Source of the DNA: Candidatus Nitrosotenuis uzonensis
Lineage (GTDB): Archaea > Thermoproteota > Nitrososphaeria > Nitrososphaerales > Nitrosopumilaceae
Assembly (NCBI RefSeq): GCF_000723185.1
Contig: NZ_CBTY010000009.1
Coordinates: 1 to 64,000 of the forward strand
DNA length: 64,000 bases
Direction: 5' to 3'
In this document: one piece after another, positions 35,854 through 43,072 of the stretch
Layout: each line of letters starts with the position of its first letter
Numbering within the stretch: the stretch's first letter is position 1
Position numbers and translations under genes: made by a program
Notes under the pieces: model-generated
What the model was told of the DNA's origin: nothing
Seen by the model: the letters and a program-made list of their open reading frames with translations, nothing else
The model's database searches: none

Positions 35854-36432
35854 ATGACAGCCGCAGATAAATTCGGCATCGCTTTTTCAATAGGATTCAC
35901 TGTTGCGTTAGTGGCAGTTGCAATGTCATTTGCTGGAATGAGTCAGACTACTTTAGTCCAGCCAGCTCCAGCTCCGGCACCAACGCCAGCTCCAGCTCCG
36001 GCACCAACGCCAGCTCCAGCTCCGGCACCAACGCCAGCTCCAGCTCCGGCACCAACGCCAGCTCCAGCTCCGGCACCAACGCCAGCTCCAGCTCCGGCAC
36101 CAACGCCAGCTCCAGCTCCGGCACCAGCAATGTCTGCCAAGGTGTCAATACCAAGTGGGTCATCAGTACCAGGTTGTGAAGCTACAAACGAATGCTACAT
36201 ACCAGCTGAAGTAACAATAGGAATAGGTGGCACCGTAACGTGGACAAACGATGACACCGCAGCACACACAGTAACAAGTGGGAATATCAACGCAGGTGGA
36301 CCAGATGGAGTGTTTGACAGCAGCATATTCATGGCCGGCAAGACATTCGAGCATACCTTTGATGAAGCAGGTGAGTACGACTACTTCTGTATCGTCCACC
36401 CATGGATGACAGGTAAAGTAATAGTGGAATAA
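35854..36432 (+). CDS. membrane-anchored type I copper protein (plastocyanin-like) with Pro-Ala repeat linker
   Basis: The 192-residue protein has an N-terminal signal/anchor helix (IAFSIGFTVALVAVAMSFAG), a linker of seven PAPAPTPA-type units, and a C-terminal cupredoxin domain. The copper ligands are visible: His in AAHTVTSG, then Cys-His-Met in YFCIVHPWMTG. Two further cysteines (CEATNEC) probably form a disulphide. Small blue copper proteins of this type are thought to carry electrons in thaumarchaeal ammonia oxidation. The rigid linker would hold the domain away from the membrane. A second cupredoxin lies at 44673. Confidence 0.9.
   Translation: MTAADKFGIAFSIGFTVALVAVAMSFAGMSQTTLVQPAPAPAPTPAPAPAPTPAPAPAPTPAPAPAPTPAPAPAPTPAPAPAPTPAPAPAPAMSAKVSIPSGSSVPGCEATNECYIPAEVTIGIGGTVTWTNDDTAAHTVTSGNINAGGPDGVFDSSIFMAGKTFEHTFDEAGEYDYFCIVHPWMTGKVIVE
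35961..36128 (+). repeat. seven 24-bp tandem repeats in the cupredoxin gene
   Basis: The unit gccagctccagctccggcac + caac repeats seven times without interruption (35961-36128); the last copy differs by one base. Each unit encodes eight residues of an Ala-Pro/Thr-Pro linker. The identical DNA copies indicate recent expansion or constant turnover by slippage. GC content is far above that of the surroundings. Confidence 0.95.
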
Positions 36433-37052: not shown

Positions 37053-38015
37053 TCAAATGAAATTATCAAGGCTATTCTCGCTCAAAGGCTTGGCATCATA
37101 ACCCATTTTGACTAGATCAGAGGCAAACTCGGTAACAAAACCATGTACCGTATAGATCTTTTCTGCTCCAGATCTCTTCACTAGATCAATCAGTTCATTA
37201 TAATCACAATGATCTGAAAGTGGTACTGCGTAGTCGTTATTTCTTGCAAATGGCATGCTTTGAGATTTAGCCCATCCAGAAAAGCCTATTGTTACTGCTC
37301 CATATCTTGACTTCATGTCTTTTACAAAGGTGGCGTTATCAGACATCATTGGGCATACCATTACCCAAGGCTTTTTATCAAGCAGTCCTTTGTTTTGCGC
37401 ATCTGTATGGCCAATACCATCTTTTAGTGATACGCCAAGCTTGCGATGAAGATCGTTCATCTGTTTCACAGAATCATGATAATAAAGCGGTTCCCAATGA
37501 CCAAACAAATGAGTGATGGTTTGTGCTTTGCCTAACGGATACCCCAAAAGCAAGACAGGGCGGCCTTTGTGATATAGTTCAGAAATCAACTCATTTACTT
37601 TTTTTAAAATCTCATCCAAACTAGGAAAGATAAATTCGGGCCTGCCAAACGTGCATTCGGTTATGAGAACTTTACATTTTGGGATTGTCGCTCCCTTCAG
37701 AAAACCTCTATGACGCGTGCATATATCGCCAGTATAAAATAGATCTTCAAAGAGCAATCCTCTTGATCCTAGTATATGTCCAGAATCATAAAGGCCGAAT
37801 TCATCAAGATATTCCACGTGATTTGAGAGATCTTTTCCTCTCAGTGTTGCAATTTCCCTTGTCTCCAGTGTAGTGAGAACCACACCATCACTACGGCTGG
37901 GAAGGTGATCAGAATGAGCATGCGATACAAAATTAATTGAACCCGACAAAGCAGTTTTGGGATCAATATTAACAGTTTTACCGTCAGAAATGCAAGTAAT
38001 ACCGTTTTTTGTCAT
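37053..38015 (-). CDS. beta-lactamase-fold exonuclease, mRNA 3'-end processing type
   Basis: From the ATG at 38015 the product has about 320 residues. It shows the metallo-beta-lactamase motifs FVSHAHSDHLP near residue 34 (H-x-H-x-D-H), LYDSGHILGSRG near 70, LFYTGD near 92 and, C-terminally, VPLSDHCDYNE and IYTVHGF (the beta-CASP-like His motifs). This group of archaeal proteins is annotated as exonucleases of the beta-lactamase fold involved in RNA processing; the closely related bacterial proteins are DNA-repair exonucleases. The frame remains open upstream through the structured RNA, but MTKNGITCISDG looks like the true start. Confidence 0.8.
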   Translation of the reverse strand: MTKNGITCISDGKTVNIDPKTALSGSINFVSHAHSDHLPSRSDGVVLTTLETREIATLRGKDLSNHVEYLDEFGLYDSGHILGSRGLLFEDLFYTGDICTRHRGFLKGATIPKCKVLITECTFGRPEFIFPSLDEILKKVNELISELYHKGRPVLLLGYPLGKAQTITHLFGHWEPLYYHDSVKQMNDLHRKLGVSLKDGIGHTDAQNKGLLDKKPWVMVCPMMSDNATFVKDMKSRYGAVTIGFSGWAKSQSMPFARNNDYAVPLSDHCDYNELIDLVKRSGAEKIYTVHGFVTEFASDLVKMGYDAKPLSENSLDNFI

Positions 38016-38111
38016 TCTGATCTTCAAGCTATATCTCAGACAATAAACAGGTGATTTAAGCCACAGGTTTAACCGAATGTTGACTAGAAGGAAAACGATT
38101 TTTGTAGAAAT

Positions 38112-38125
38112 CAAAGAAAAAAGGA
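38112..38125 (-). terminator. T-rich terminator of the minus-strand RNA
   Basis: Directly after the closing helix of the RNA at 38131-38234, the minus strand reads ctgcatccttttttcttt, a run of six T with more T following. Archaeal RNA polymerase stops at T runs, so this fits a 3' end a few bases past the helix. The exonuclease gene begins about 100 bases further on. Confidence 0.5.
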
Positions 38126-38130
38126 TGCAG

Positions 38131-38234
38131 AGTGTCCCGTCGTCTCGTTCCGGGATTCGAATCGACACCATTGTGTCTTGGTGTAAGAGAATACAAGGTT
38201 GACTTGTACCCGGCAAGCGACGCCGCTGGACACT
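38131..38234 (-). ncRNA. tRNA-like structured RNA, unclassified
   Basis: On the minus strand this 104-base segment is enclosed by a perfect 7-bp helix (agtgtcc/ggacact), then 5-bp (cgtcg/cgacg) and 5-bp (ccggg/cccgg) helices. At the apex are two hairpins: 5-bp with a 7-base loop (38192-38208) and 6-bp with an 8-base loop (38165-38184). Half of a tRNA can also be drawn: 7-bp end helix, a 4-bp arm with 7-base loop, and a 5-bp/7-base hairpin with U33 and CAA. A T-loop-like TTCGAAT lies downstream. The T-stem does not form, the D-loop lacks GG and the discriminator would be C, so it is not an ordinary tRNA. It is GC-rich and followed by a T run. Confidence 0.6.
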
Positions 38235-38276
38235 CTATTTTCCCTTACATTTTCGAATCGTCTGATATACGAGTTC

Positions 38277-38289
38277 AAAATATTTAATG
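38277..38289 (-). promoter_or_regulatory. TATA-like element upstream of the structured RNA
   Basis: Read on the minus strand the sequence is cattaaatatttt, an AT-rich element similar to thaumarchaeal TATA boxes. It would place a start near 38256, about 20 bases before the first helix of the RNA. Evidence is compositional only. Confidence 0.35.
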
Positions 38290-38433
38290 TCGATCGTTAA
38301 TTCCCTGAATATTTGTTTGGAAAAATAGCCGTTTGAATCAATTTTGCAAAAAATCTTTAGAATAACAATACGAATTCTTAACGTTCATTTAATGAGCAAA
38401 CATACAGAAGACATCTTAAATATCAGAATTGCA

Positions 38434-39036
38434 TTATGTGCAAGTAGCAAGGACAGTACTGGCCTCATAATCGTGGTTTGCCAGATGGATTGAAATTGTT
38501 ATTTTGTTCTTGACTATATCGATTTTTACGTTATCAAATATGGTTCTGTATTTTGAAACTTTTTTGCCATCAGGCATAGACACGTAACCATCCATAGTAA
38601 GCAGGCCATCGTTTATGAGTGCGTTTATCTTTCTATACCCAGACGTTTGTGGCATACGACATGATTCTATTATCTGAGATATAATCATCGATTCGCCATT
38701 CAAGGTAGTCAGTATGTTTTTTTTGTCATCATCACCAAATGAATCCAAGATTATTTCAGTAAGTTTTTGATTTTCTATAGTAACCCATTTGTCGCCGTCG
38801 ATAAGCTTGATGTCACACGCACTTTTGAAGAACTTTTGCTCAATTCCATCTGCGCCAGCACCGAAAAATTCTCTTAATACAGCATCAAGTTTTTGGAATT
38901 GCTCTATTGACTGGGTAAGAGACAGCCCATATTTTTCAAATAGTCTGGCTTCAATTTTTTGTACTGTTTTTTCGCCAAGATTCTCCCTGATAGTGGTGTC
39001 AAGGGACTTTGCCAGAAGCCGGTCAAGACCAGACAT
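38434..39036 (-). CDS. winged-helix regulator with conserved N-terminal domain
   Basis: The 200-residue protein has an N-terminal helical domain (residues 1-60, LLAKSLDTTIRENLGEKTVQKIEARLFEKYG) and a middle segment FGAGADGIEQKFFKSACDIK. A C-terminal winged helix follows (ILTTLNGESMIISQIIESCRMPQTSGYRKINALINDGLL). That arrangement is known from thaumarchaeal regulators with a sensor-like N-terminal domain linked to an ArsR-like HTH. Effector and targets are unknown. It is divergent from the HEAT-repeat gene. Confidence 0.65.
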   Translation of the reverse strand: MSGLDRLLAKSLDTTIRENLGEKTVQKIEARLFEKYGLSLTQSIEQFQKLDAVLREFFGAGADGIEQKFFKSACDIKLIDGDKWVTIENQKLTEIILDSFGDDDKKNILTTLNGESMIISQIIESCRMPQTSGYRKINALINDGLLTMDGYVSMPDGKKVSKYRTIFDNVKIDIVKNKITISIHLANHDYEASTVLATCT

Positions 39037-39117
39037 ATATCTATTCTTCCCATCATACTATATTACCATTTCCATCATTGGGCATAAGAGTTTAATAGCA
39101 TAAACACGTTTCCAAAT

Positions 39118-39621
39118 ATGGTATTGGCGCTTCTCATTTTTGATGATGACAATATTAGACAGTTACCTGTAGCTGAGAGATTAGCACAATGTGAGAGGAT
39201 TATCAAAAACGACCAAGATGAATCAAAACGCTGGGATGCCACATGGCTTGCTGGTGAAATTGCTGAAAATCGAAATGACAAGGATCCCATTTTTAATCAG
39301 GTGGCAGATTTGATGGGATGGATACTAGAAAACGATGATAACAATGTGGTAAAACATGAAGCATGTTACCAGATTGCAGCAAGGAACATGAGAAGCAAGA
39401 TTCCGCACCTTATCAATTCAGCATTAAACGATGAAAGTGGCCTTACAAAGCATGAGGCGCTAGAATCGCTCGGTTTGATGCGGGCTACAGAAGCAATAGG
39501 ACTTATCAATGACGCCCTTAACGATCCAAACGAAGACGTAAGACAGACTGCGGCATTTGTGATAAAGAGATTAAAACGTATGCAAGAGTCAGGTGACTAC
39601 AAGCCTTCCTCAATCATCTAA
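39118..39621 (+). CDS. HEAT-repeat protein
   Basis: The 167-residue protein is a chain of helical pairs: KRWDATWLAGEIAENR, VVKHEACYQIAARNMRSKIPHLINSALND, TKHEALESLGLMRATEAIGLINDALNDPNEDVRQTAAFVIKRLKRM. These are HEAT repeats of the PBS-lyase/deoxyhypusine-hydroxylase type. The metal-binding HE pairs of deoxyhypusine hydroxylase are partly present (KHEA twice), so an enzymatic role is possible but unproven. One base separates it from the response regulator, so both are in one transcript. Confidence 0.75.
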   Translation: MVLALLIFDDDNIRQLPVAERLAQCERIIKNDQDESKRWDATWLAGEIAENRNDKDPIFNQVADLMGWILENDDNNVVKHEACYQIAARNMRSKIPHLINSALNDESGLTKHEALESLGLMRATEAIGLINDALNDPNEDVRQTAAFVIKRLKRMQESGDYKPSSII

Positions 39622-39622
39622 A

Positions 39623-39976
39623 ATGGTTACTGCAATCGTAGTTGATGACGATGTAGATACGGTGGACGTGTTCTGCGACTATTTACGAATAAAAAATGTC
39701 ACGATATTAGGAAGGGGATATAATGGAAAAGAAGCTGTGCAGCTATACAAAACTCATATGCCGGACATCGTATTTCTAGACTTGATGATGCCAGAATATG
39801 ATGGTTTTTACGCATTAGAGAACATACGCAAGATAAATCAAGATTCCAAAATAGTAGTTGTAACTGCAGATCTGCGCGAGCATACTGCAAAGAGGCTAGA
39901 GATCTTAAAACCTACAGAGATATTCATCAAGCCCTACGATATGGAAAGAATAAACCAGCTGCTAAGTACCATCTAA
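39623..39976 (+). CDS. single-domain response regulator (CheY-like)
   Basis: From the ATG at 39623 the product is 117 residues. The acidic pocket is VVDDD near residue 6, the phospho-acceptor Asp lies in IVFLDLMMPEYDG near 50, the conserved Thr in VVVTADLRE near 80, and the Lys in IFIKPYD near 101. There is no output domain, so signal is passed by protein contact. It follows the HEAT-repeat gene by one base, and the orphan DHp gene overlaps its end on the opposite strand. Confidence 0.88.
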   Translation: MVTAIVVDDDVDTVDVFCDYLRIKNVTILGRGYNGKEAVQLYKTHMPDIVFLDLMMPEYDGFYALENIRKINQDSKIVVVTADLREHTAKRLEILKPTEIFIKPYDMERINQLLSTI

Positions 39977-40137
39977 ACCTGCATTATTTTTCCTATTTTA
40001 TCCAATGCGGATTGAATTCTCTTTATTTCCATGTCAATCTGTTCGTCAGATTTGCGTTGTTTTATTATTTGAATAGACGCGCTAATCACAAAAAGCGGAT
40101 CTCGCATCATAGTTATTTTTTCTTCGGTTTGAGTCAA
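39973..40137 (-). CDS. orphan histidine-kinase DHp fragment without the phospho-His
   Basis: A short ORF (TTG at 40137, 54 residues; ATG at 40110 gives 45) encodes MMRDPLFVISASIQIIKQRK, then SDEQIDMEIKRIQSALDKIGK. It aligns with the DHp helices of the two kinases in this window (HDLRNPLSVIKN, HDLQNPLTIIKN), but His is replaced by Thr. No ATPase domain follows. It could act as a scaffold or phosphorelay decoy for the response regulator that it overlaps by three bases. Being so short, it could be a remnant; conserved DHp-type spacing argues for a real protein. Confidence 0.5.
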   Translation of the reverse strand: MTQTEEKITMMRDPLFVISASIQIIKQRKSDEQIDMEIKRIQSALDKIGKIMQV

Positions 40138-40215
40138 TTGGCAGTAATCAGCACCCTTTGTATAAAAAAACTCCCTACCAAATTTGGAAACAATTCAGAA
40201 AAACGCGCGTGCCAG

Positions 40216-40998
40216 CTACCTAGAATAACTCTCTTTCCTGAAAAGCCCAAGATGGCTATAAACGCCAAATGAAAGTAGAATGTAATTCCAGTAGAATGGA
40301 ATTTCCAGTGGATTTCCAGTATAATAGGTATCATCATTTTGCCCAAGTAAGAATGCAGTATCTGCAGTAAAAACGCAAATTGCACCAAAACAAATCAAAG
40401 TCCACATAAGATTGACCTTTCCTTTGAAAAATAGCCCTACTCCTAACAATGCCGGTATTATTATCATCGAATCAAAAGCAGGATACGCCGTAGCTATGAC
40501 CATCATAAAGAGATCGTCAGTAGTTCCATGTCCAAGCGTCAGATATAGTCCAAGTACCAGTATGCCAACTGCAAAGACAGTCGACGTCGCAAACATTTTT
40601 TTTGTTATATTCACCTTAACGGGCTGCAGGTATGCAACAAAGAACATTAAAAGAAACGGATACCCAATAATATAGAAAATATCTGCTGCTGATGGGAACG
40701 GATCGATGTTAAGATACAATTCCTGTACTATCCAGAGCATTTCTGCCACAAACCAGGATACCGAATAACATGCAAAAGCAAACCATGCAACTCCATGATA
40801 TCCAGACGTTCCAAAACGGACTAGCATCAATATTGCCAGAATTAGGAGAGTCCCAGATGTCGGAATGTAAAGTAGATTCCCAATAATTATTGCAGATTCG
40901 ACTCCAAGATAATTAGAAAGAAGAACTAATGCAGTGCACGTAACAAGTGACGCTATAAGATATTTTTTTTCAAAAAGAGTATCAAATACGGTCTGCAT
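40216..40998 (-). CDS. multi-spanning membrane sensor-like protein
   Basis: The 260-residue protein has seven or eight transmembrane helices, with the loop NIDPFPSAADIFYIIGYPF. That loop motif (PS-x-AD-x-FY-x-x-GYP) is typical of the membrane sensor domain found in front of bacterial GGDEF and kinase proteins. Here no cytoplasmic output domain is attached, so it may signal through the adjacent small proteins. A gene on the same strand ends two bases upstream. The C-terminus is short and basic (RKESYSR). Confidence 0.7.
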   Translation of the reverse strand: MQTVFDTLFEKKYLIASLVTCTALVLLSNYLGVESAIIIGNLLYIPTSGTLLILAILMLVRFGTSGYHGVAWFAFACYSVSWFVAEMLWIVQELYLNIDPFPSAADIFYIIGYPFLLMFFVAYLQPVKVNITKKMFATSTVFAVGILVLGLYLTLGHGTTDDLFMMVIATAYPAFDSMIIIPALLGVGLFFKGKVNLMWTLICFGAICVFTADTAFLLGQNDDTYYTGNPLEIPFYWNYILLSFGVYSHLGLFRKESYSR

Positions 40999-41000
40999 TG

Positions 41001-41285
41001 TTATTCCAATGCGACAAGGAATTTTTGAACAGGAGTTTGATGGGAGAATTCCCTAAGACTCTCTTTAATTGACGAGATTATCGCAGTATGTGCATTCCCA
41101 TACAGATCAGCAAGAACCCTTTTTAGATATTCTGGATGGTCGTAACAATCAGGGACATAGCAATTGTAGTCGTTCTTTAGTATTTCAGTTACCTTTTGAA
41201 ATACTGGTTCGCCCATTTCAAGTAATGCCTTTTCTATAGAAAAGGCCACCAAAGCCTTCTTTATTTGAACATCATCTATATCCAT
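41001..41285 (-). CDS. conserved small protein of the signalling block, 94 aa
   Basis: The protein is helical and acidic with a central DYNCYVPDCYDHPEYLKRVL motif and the helix NAHTAIISSIKESLREF. It resembles stand-alone output modules that thaumarchaea attach to two-component proteins, but I cannot name the family with confidence. Its stop is two bases before the membrane sensor start, so the two genes are cotranscribed. The pair of cysteines is not in a metal-site pattern. Confidence 0.55.
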   Translation of the reverse strand: MDIDDVQIKKALVAFSIEKALLEMGEPVFQKVTEILKNDYNCYVPDCYDHPEYLKRVLADLYGNAHTAIISSIKESLREFSHQTPVQKFLVALE

Positions 41286-41411
41286 AGATATTACTTGTTT
41301 ATTCCAGTATAATTAATGAGTGTCGATTTTGACTCATGCGATTGGTTCAAACTTGTACTGTTTGTATAGTACAAACGAACTCAAATAATCTAACGAATAA
41401 CATAGTATTGT

Positions 41412-42419
41412 ATGCATTATGAAGAAAGTGGGCATAAAAAGAAGAGTGTTAATGATGCCGAGCGGCTGTTAAAAAACGCCCATGAAGACGCCGAGCGTAT
41501 GATAAGAATCGCACGAGAAGATGCCGAGCGGCTGTTAAAAAACGCCCATGAAGACGCCGAGCGTATGATAAGAATCGCACGAGAAGATGCCGAGCGGCTG
41601 TTAAAAAACGCCCATGAAGACGCCGAGCGTATGATAAGAATCGCACGAGAAGATGCCGAGCGGCTGTTAAAAAACGCCCATGAAGAATCGATGCAGGAAA
41701 ATGTCAAAGAAACTAAGCAGCCAAACCAACAAGATGAGAGCGGTATGTCGTTAAAGAAGGACAAACTTCATACTGTAGGCGAAATGGCATCAAGACTTGC
41801 ACATGATTTACAAAATCCCCTCACCATAATTAAGAATACAGTAGAAATTCTAAAGATACAACAGCCAAATTTGGATGTAAAAACCAAAGATCATTATGAG
41901 AAAATTGAACGAGCAGTAACCAAAATGACACAGCAGATAAAGGATGTCCTCAATTATGTCAGGACCAGTAATCTGCAAGCTGAATATGTATCACTTTTGA
42001 GCATACTAAAAAACGTCCTCAATGATCTTAAGATACCTGAGTACATCAAAATCATACTTCCTGATGAAGATGTTATGTTATATGGAGATCCAAAACAGCT
42101 TGAAATAGTTTTTTCAAATCTTATCTTGAATTCCATACAGGCAATAGAGAAAAAAGGAAAAGTTATGATTCAAGCGTCCGACAATGAATATTTTACTGCA
42201 ATAGATATAATCGATAATGGACACGGTATTGAAAAGGATAATTTGTCGCACATTTTTGAGCCATTATTTACAACAAAGCAGACTGGCACAGGTCTTGGTC
42301 TAGCAAGTTGCAAAGCTATAATAGAGAACCACGGTGGGAACATAGACTGCTCAAGTATAGTAGGAAAAGGTACTGTGTTTACAGTCAAACTCCCCAAGAC
42401 TGAAGGCATAAAACAGTGA
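41412..42419 (+). CDS. soluble histidine kinase with N-terminal hendecad coiled coil
   Basis: The 335-residue kinase has no transmembrane segment. Residues 15-91 are 22-residue repeats (DAERLLKNAHEDAERMIRIARE) that form two 11-residue coiled-coil units each. Then come the DHp box ASRLAHDLQNPLTIIKN with the phospho-His near residue 131, N-box LILNSIQAIE, D-box DIIDNGHGI, F-box IFEPLFTTKQ and G-box GTGLGLAS. It is thus complete for autophosphorylation. The coiled coil probably sets dimer geometry or senses stress along its length. Neighbouring response regulator and sensor genes are candidate partners. Confidence 0.9.
   Translation: MHYEESGHKKKSVNDAERLLKNAHEDAERMIRIAREDAERLLKNAHEDAERMIRIAREDAERLLKNAHEDAERMIRIAREDAERLLKNAHEESMQENVKETKQPNQQDESGMSLKKDKLHTVGEMASRLAHDLQNPLTIIKNTVEILKIQQPNLDVKTKDHYEKIERAVTKMTQQIKDVLNYVRTSNLQAEYVSLLSILKNVLNDLKIPEYIKIILPDEDVMLYGDPKQLEIVFSNLILNSIQAIEKKGKVMIQASDNEYFTAIDIIDNGHGIEKDNLSHIFEPLFTTKQTGTGLGLASCKAIIENHGGNIDCSSIVGKGTVFTVKLPKTEGIKQ
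41454..41685 (+). repeat. 66-bp perfect tandem repeat in the kinase gene
   Basis: Three exact 66-bp copies (41454-41519, 41520-41585, 41586-41651) and a 34-base partial copy (41652-41685). Identity at silent positions shows that expansion is recent or that copies are kept uniform. The unit encodes 22 residues, so copy number changes preserve the frame and the coiled coil. Confidence 0.97.
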
Positions 42420-42445
42420 TATTACAGGTATGAGCAGAGTTTTTG

Positions 42446-43072
42446 ATGAATCTTGGAATTTTGATTTCTGGGCGGGGAAGCAATATGGAGGCCATTTTAA
42501 AAGCAGTCAAAAAACAGAAAATTCCCATAAAACCTGCGGTTGTAATTTCAAATAATCCAAATGCCGTCGGGCTTGAAATAGCTCAAAAATTAGGAGTCAG
42601 TACAGAAACAGTCGAAAGTAGAGGATTTTCAGGCACACGCTGGGAGTATGACCAAAGGATAATCAAAATATTATACAAGTATGGCGTTACTGAAAAGGAC
42701 GGACTTGTATGCCTTGCAGGATTTATGAGAATAATTAGCCCCGAATTCATCAGAAAATACAAGAACCGGATACTCAACATACATCCTGCAATACTACCAT
42801 CTTTTCCTGGATTACACTCTCAAAGACAGGCAGTAGAATACGGCGTAAAATATTCTGGGTGCACGGTACACTTTGTGGATGAAGGCGTAGATACAGGACC
42901 CATAATTTTGCAATCAATAGTTCCTGTCAGAGATAATGATACCGAAGAAACACTATCAAGAAGAATTCTAGCAAAAGAACACAAGATTTACCCACAGGCA
43001 ATTAAACTTGTGGCAGAGGGAAAAGTAAAGATTGTTGGGAGACGTACCGTAATCACAAATCAGGACCGCTGA
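42446..43072 (+). CDS. purN: phosphoribosylglycinamide formyltransferase
   Basis: PurN transfers a formyl group from 10-formyl-THF to GAR in purine synthesis. The 208-residue protein has LGILISGRGSNMEAI at the N-terminus, the active-site block NIHPAILPSFPGLHSQRQAV near residue 110 (Asn-His), and VHFVDEGVDTGPIILQ with the catalytic Asp near 144. The in-frame TTG at 42443 precedes the ATG by one codon; I prefer the ATG. The FolD and PurD genes lie about 3-5 kb downstream, so purine/folate genes are loosely clustered. Confidence 0.93.
   Translation: MNLGILISGRGSNMEAILKAVKKQKIPIKPAVVISNNPNAVGLEIAQKLGVSTETVESRGFSGTRWEYDQRIIKILYKYGVTEKDGLVCLAGFMRIISPEFIRKYKNRILNIHPAILPSFPGLHSQRQAVEYGVKYSGCTVHFVDEGVDTGPIILQSIVPVRDNDTEETLSRRILAKEHKIYPQAIKLVAEGKVKIVGRRTVITNQDR

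Follow-up and report, generated by a model that had tools for sequence, protein, structure and literature searches.

A putative structured noncoding RNA of Candidatus Nitrosotenuis encoded upstream of an MBL-fold exonuclease gene

The locus and the proposed RNA gene

The window, a stretch of 64,000 nucleotides from Candidatus Nitrosotenuis uzonensis (contig NZ_CBTY010000009.1, positions 1 to 64,000), contains a minus-strand gene for an MBL-fold exonuclease. Upstream of it, on the same strand, an earlier note had drawn a folded RNA of 104 bases. The helices of that drawing are present on the minus strand, but the unit is larger; the transcript probably begins at 38259, and the fold takes in a leader at 38259-38240. 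The proposed ncRNA gene and the elements around it are as follows.

37053-38018 (-): exonuclease gene
38053-38060 (-): TATA-like box of the exonuclease gene itself, CTTAAATC, not part of the ncRNA; two genomes without the RNA retain CTTAAAT
38117-38259 (-): proposed ncRNA gene of about 143 nt; predicted start at G38259, T-run included
38117-38122 (-): T6 run, probable archaeal terminator; T5 or longer follows helix P3 in 12 of 12 homologs
38281-38288 (-): TATA box ATTAAATA, at -29; AWTAARTA stands at -29 in 11 homologs and at -30 in the twelfth
38292-38295 (-): promoter element GATC, at -36; position fixed in all but one of the 12 homologs, where it is shifted by one
38311-38318 (-): promoter element AAACAAAT (AAACARAT), at -59; equal distance in 11 of 12 homologs, 1 nt off in the twelfth

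Among 41 related genomes, a search at the DNA level turned up a single clear relative. Using the downstream exonuclease gene as an anchor, 14 loci of the same genus were collected, and 12 of these carry the ncRNA at the same place. The ncRNA thus occurs in 12 of 17 Ca. Nitrosotenuis genomes, and in each of them it precedes the same exonuclease gene. Two covariance models, R1 and R2, both recover exactly those 12 of the 17. For R2, the E-values lie between 3e-16 and 2e-23, and the match in the window's copy covers 38130-38259 (-). G014 and G015, which have the gene and lack the RNA, are nested among RNA-bearing species in the exonuclease tree, and so have probably lost the ncRNA. In the remaining three genomes without the ncRNA, no exonuclease gene was detected either; two of these genomes, at 61% and 70%, are clearly incomplete, and the third has a listed completeness of 91%. 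Searches with R2 of 400 genomes of the order and 400 of the class gave no match outside the genus, under filters strict enough that very diverged relatives could escape, and the core pattern, sought in viral contigs, likewise gave nothing outside the genus. A family-wide match (L089, E 0.094) was inspected and rejected as chance. At the loci examined in other genera, the ncRNA is absent upstream of the exonuclease gene, and the neighbour there is often a purN-like reading frame.

The exonuclease gene adjoins the purN-like frame in G015 and in many other genera. Here (37053-43072), about 4.4 kb separates the two and holds the RNA and genes for HTH-like, HEAT-repeat, response regulator, and histidine kinase proteins, which suggests either insertion or repeated loss. 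At its N-terminus, the histidine kinase-like protein (41412-42419, +) carries tandem copies of a unit of about 24 residues (NAHEDAERMIRIAREDAERLLK), and a related repeat is found in another species' locus (L038). The frame at 35854-36432 (+) encodes a putative protein resembling cupredoxins, in which a PAPAPTPAPA repeat makes up a long linker.

The TATA-like element and the T6 run that had been pointed out earlier are indeed present, at 38288-38281 and 38122-38117, and both can be read by the general rules for archaeal promoters and for termination at T-runs. Promoter distances were counted by taking the leader's first purine as +1. In the twelfth homolog, all three promoter elements are one base further away, and the sequence between the elements is variable. 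A pyrimidine/purine step is found at -1/+1 in all 12 homologs, the purine being leader base 1. This near-rigid geometry places the likely transcript start at the first base of the leader, G38259. Together with the leader start and the T-runs, it defines the unit from 38259 to about 38117 as an independent RNA gene. As read from these signals, then, the ncRNA is a gene of its own, predicted to be transcribed, whose promoter and terminator are kept alongside the RNA in all 12 homologs.

Each of six genomes has the exact full promoter pattern at one site. Other sites, with two or three mismatches, were inspected and set aside; they lead into protein genes, such as an rpoH-like gene, and do not match the RNA. 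In two sister species (L156 and L157), a partial promoter with three mismatches precedes a putative membrane-protein gene.

Helices of the core and pairing of the leader

The segment folds with a minimum free energy of -44 kcal/mol, compared with -30.1 +/- 3.45 for dinucleotide shuffles (z -4.03), and none of 200 shuffles was as good. The core is made of four helices, as follows.

38228-38236 (-): helix P3, 5' strand, AGAGUGUCC; pairs with 38137-38129
38129-38137 (-): helix P3, 3' strand, GGACACUCU; pairs with 38236-38228
38210-38213 (-): helix P4 core, 5' strand, CCGG; CUAG in most homologs
38150-38153 (-): helix P4 core, 3' strand, CCGG; compensatory changes
38192-38208 (-): hairpin P5, UACAAG-UCAAC-CUUGUA, the anticodon-like hairpin of the earlier note; compensatory A-U/G-C changes
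38164-38177 (-): hairpin P6, GACAC-AAUG-GUGUC; 5 of 5 pairs in 12 of 12 homologs

The outer helix had been drawn with 7 bp; it exists, as AGAGUGUCC/GGACACUCU, with a length of 9 bp, and its GUGUCC/GGACAC is nearly invariant in the 12 genomes. The inner helix, CCGGG/CCCGG, is present as drawn (38213-38209 with 38154-38150), as are both apical hairpins. In P4, the window's CCGG/CCGG is replaced in most species by CUAG/CUAG, a compensatory change on both sides. The loop of P5 is not conserved among the homologs. In P6, double changes are found at two pairs (A-U/G-C and C-G/U-A), so that GACAC/GUGUC becomes GGCAC/GUGCC and GGUAC/GUACC in homologs. An alternative second hairpin, ACACC/GGUGU, which agrees with the original drawing, shares a strand with P6 and is fully paired in 10 of the 12 sequences; P6, with full pairing in all 12, is the better supported of the two.

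The final pair count was made on the 12 untrimmed sequences in an alignment fitted to the model (A9); in the alignment from which R2 was built (A8), a few linker bases had been trimmed. In the untrimmed alignment, 95.1% of cells pair. Changes on both sides are found at 11 pairs, in 27 cells, compared with 12.3 +/- 3.0 in shuffled alignments, of which 0 of 500 reach this value. The covariation score is 0.204, against 0.147 for shuffled alignments (0 of 500) and 0.029-0.082 for slid controls. RNAalifold alone recovers P3, P4, P5, and P6, from an input alignment that was already fitted to these helices. The homolog alignment that had been proposed as a check has thus yielded compensatory changes across 12 genomes. 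The structured segment is real and had been understated, since its fold beats the shuffles and since homologs with compensatory changes exist.

The first 18-20 bases of the predicted transcript, RAUUCGAA-AA(U)-GUAAGRG, lie just outside the segment folded originally. In every homolog, this leader is complementary to CUCUURC and UUCGAAU within the core, over about 15-18 bases, with single mismatches in some. Two further helices result.

38252-38259 (-): helix B, 5' strand, GAUUCGAA, the extreme 5' end of the RNA; pairs with 38161-38154
38154-38161 (-): helix B, 3' strand, UUCGAAUC, earlier read as a T-loop; perfect complement of the RNA 5' end here
38240-38249 (-): helix A, 5' strand, UGUAAGGGAA; core GUAAGRG at 38248-38242
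38182-38191 (-): helix A, 3' strand, UUCUCUUACA; CUCUURC conserved in 12 of 12 homologs

Helix B has 7-8 bp, and an equivalent pairing is found in all homologs; helix A has 7-10 bp, and all seven pairs of its core are formed in 12 of 12 sequences. The leader pairing adds -12.7 to -17.4 kcal/mol in each of the 12 genomes (z -4.0 to -6.2), and between 0 and 2 of 300 shuffled leaders per genome do as well. In one homolog (L044), the leader pairing appears unprompted in the minimum free energy structure. Helices A and B are almost invariant. Their variation is one-sided only, mostly G-U/A-U exchanges, and none of their pairs is changed on both sides; hence, the support for A and B is complementarity and conservation rather than covariation.

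With hairpin P6, helices A and B make a second three-way junction. Since A and B are interleaved with P3 and P4, the combination would be a pseudoknot. The two sets of helices have almost no nucleotides in common, which suggests that they form together; the 3' strand of helix B directly abuts the 3' strand of P4, and in the window's copy C38154 is claimed by both. Their coexistence is uncertain because a linker of only about 3-8 nt joins helix A to P3. The description of the fold as a three-way junction was therefore right in part, the full structure probably being pseudoknotted, with the second junction made through the leader.

The conserved 5' end of the RNA invites another proposal, that the ncRNA acts in trans by base-pairing with mRNAs, the leader pairing serving as an on/off latch; its UUCGAA is self-complementary, so that dimers are possible as well. 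Nevertheless, the conserved segments are paired internally, and no conserved unpaired seed was seen, so that we regard an antisense role as rather improbable.

Relation to the exonuclease gene and to known RNA classes

The neighboring gene had been described as an RNA-processing exonuclease. Its position downstream of the RNA is as stated; a function in RNA processing is not established, and the link between RNA and gene is positional only. The protein has an MBL fold and an RMMBL domain. Its best family is the ligase-associated DNA exonuclease TIGR04122, at 143 bits, below the cut-off of 325; similarity to aCPSF1 and CPSF73 is weaker. It is only loosely assignable, with the ligase-associated DNA damage response exonuclease scoring best. 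The exonuclease frame is open upstream into the ncRNA gene (38216-38019, -), here and in some other genomes, such as G016, and automatic annotation may add a false N-terminal extension (387 aa rather than 321).

Could the RNA instead be a cis-acting 5' leader? As an attenuator or riboswitch, it would control the exonuclease gene when transcription reads through the T-run. The RNA is on the same strand in all 12 homologs, 105-116 nt upstream of the start region of the exonuclease gene, though the gene on its other side differs by species (HTH-like, response regulator, or another). This constant neighbor is compatible with a link in cis and is also explained by synteny. In addition, P6 and ACACC/GGUGU are partly exclusive, with one strand in common, an arrangement that is switch-like. 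Against this, a conserved TATA-like element lies between the RNA and the gene, even where the RNA is absent, and TTTATATC is found at the matching place upstream of the exonuclease gene in other genera. As this promoter is kept in two genomes where the RNA is missing, as well as in other genera, a switch in cis is unlikely; the T-run after the ncRNA and the retention of the exonuclease gene without the ncRNA in G014 and G015 also speak against it.

The RNA had also been called tRNA-like. The window's copy has a 7-9-bp, acceptor-like end helix, a 7-nt loop with U33, and the heptamer TTCGAAT, and these features could be taken for a degenerate, intron-bearing, or permuted tRNA gene. As such, the anticodon-like and T-loop-like features are not kept in the homologs. 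The U33/CAA loop of the anticodon-like hairpin differs in other species, and TTCGAAT, which has no local T-stem, is a helix strand paired with the 5' leader in all homologs. Unlike a tRNA, the ncRNA has neither a D-arm nor a T-arm. ARAGORN found no tRNA or tmRNA in the window and no tRNA in any of the 12 homologs, and there was no Rfam tRNA match. Intron-bearing and permuted arrangements were tried as well; none worked, and the homologs lack the tRNA-like features. A tRNA origin can hardly be entertained.

No credible Rfam family emerged from the recommended screens. Near the locus, Rfam 15 gave nothing above chance-level matches (E<=10) and none over the whole window at gathering scores. A cmscan of the 12 homologs against all Rfam families at E<=10 returned no tRNA, no ribozyme, and chance matches only. 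For C/D or H/ACA guide RNAs, the sole match was to snoR144 (E 8.8; 16.3 bits, where the cut-off is 100), and no conserved C/D boxes were seen by eye in the homolog alignment. A missing housekeeping RNA was considered and rejected; archaeal RNase P RNA (RF00373) and SRP RNA (RF01857), which are likewise independent and highly structured, are located elsewhere in the genome, at separate loci. The judgment that the RNA is no standard tRNA and belongs to no family that can be named holds, given the compensatory changes in 12 genomes and the absent tRNA and Rfam matches.

The proposed nested pseudoknot brings to mind the ribozymes of the HDV/CPEB3 group. In HDV, the strand order is P1 5', P2 5', hairpin P3, P1 3', hairpin P4, joining strand, P2 3'. 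Helix A can be mapped onto P1, P4 onto P2, P5 onto P3, and P6 onto P4, in an order that would be compatible if the helices coexist; the core of helix A has 7 bp, and in most copies CGAAU, which also occurs in the HDV/CPEB3 joining strand, directly precedes the 3' strand of P4. On the other hand, the extra helix B joins the 5' end to the joining strand, so that the C of CGAAU is paired, and the outer P3 is additional. The P5 loop and its spacing to helix A vary, so that there is no conserved P1.1-like pairing, and no Rfam ribozyme was matched at E<=10 in the 12 homologs. A self-cleaving ribozyme or ligand-binding RNA of HDV-like topology is, accordingly, very improbable. It is tempting to imagine a new catalytic or ligand-binding class in ammonia-oxidising archaea, with the joining strand of an HDV-like nested pseudoknot masked by the RNA's own 5' end; this would be a long shot. 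As key features of the core are unconserved, the likeness in strand order may serve as a lead only.

Proposed role and significance

We consider it probable that this is a structured ncRNA family previously unlisted and without an Rfam description, restricted to Ca. Nitrosotenuis. Searches of the open-access literature turned up no account of the ncRNA, nor any non-housekeeping RNA for the genus Nitrosotenuis. Among archaeal intergenic sRNAs, Methanosarcina sRNA162 and Haloferax sRNA132 are reported to be linked to mRNA targets (PMC3510493, PMC6560208). All are archaeal small RNA genes, with the difference that here the conserved bases are paired.

The reading that we favor, with reasonable though limited confidence, is that of a dedicated gene, specific to Ca. 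Nitrosotenuis, for a structured ncRNA of about 143 nt that acts in trans as a protein-bound compact scaffold or decoy. The established part of this model, on comparative grounds, is the RNA's own promoter, the T-run, the compensatory changes in P3-P6, and the complementarity of the leader. The further steps are proposed as follows. Helices A and B of the leader and the outer P3 and P4 would form together, giving a nested pseudoknot. The 5' end would then be buried between helix B and helix P4, and this protected end may stabilise the RNA. Nearly all of the conserved bases being paired, there is no obvious exposed antisense seed, and it is for this reason that we consider a scaffold or decoy bound by protein likelier than antisense regulation or a switch acting on the gene that follows. 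The range within a single genus and the two apparent losses indicate that the ncRNA is dispensable.

The interest of the locus lies in the comparative support for the fold, in a start and an end that are predicted to the nucleotide, and in an unusual promoter found once per genome. For annotators, it carries the warning that the exonuclease frame extends open into the ncRNA in some species. To our knowledge, few non-housekeeping RNAs have been described in ammonia-oxidising archaea. If transcribed, the ncRNA adds a new RNA family, and the pseudoknot, if it indeed buries the 5' end, would offer a simple model for how an archaeal RNA may protect itself or present a protein-binding surface.
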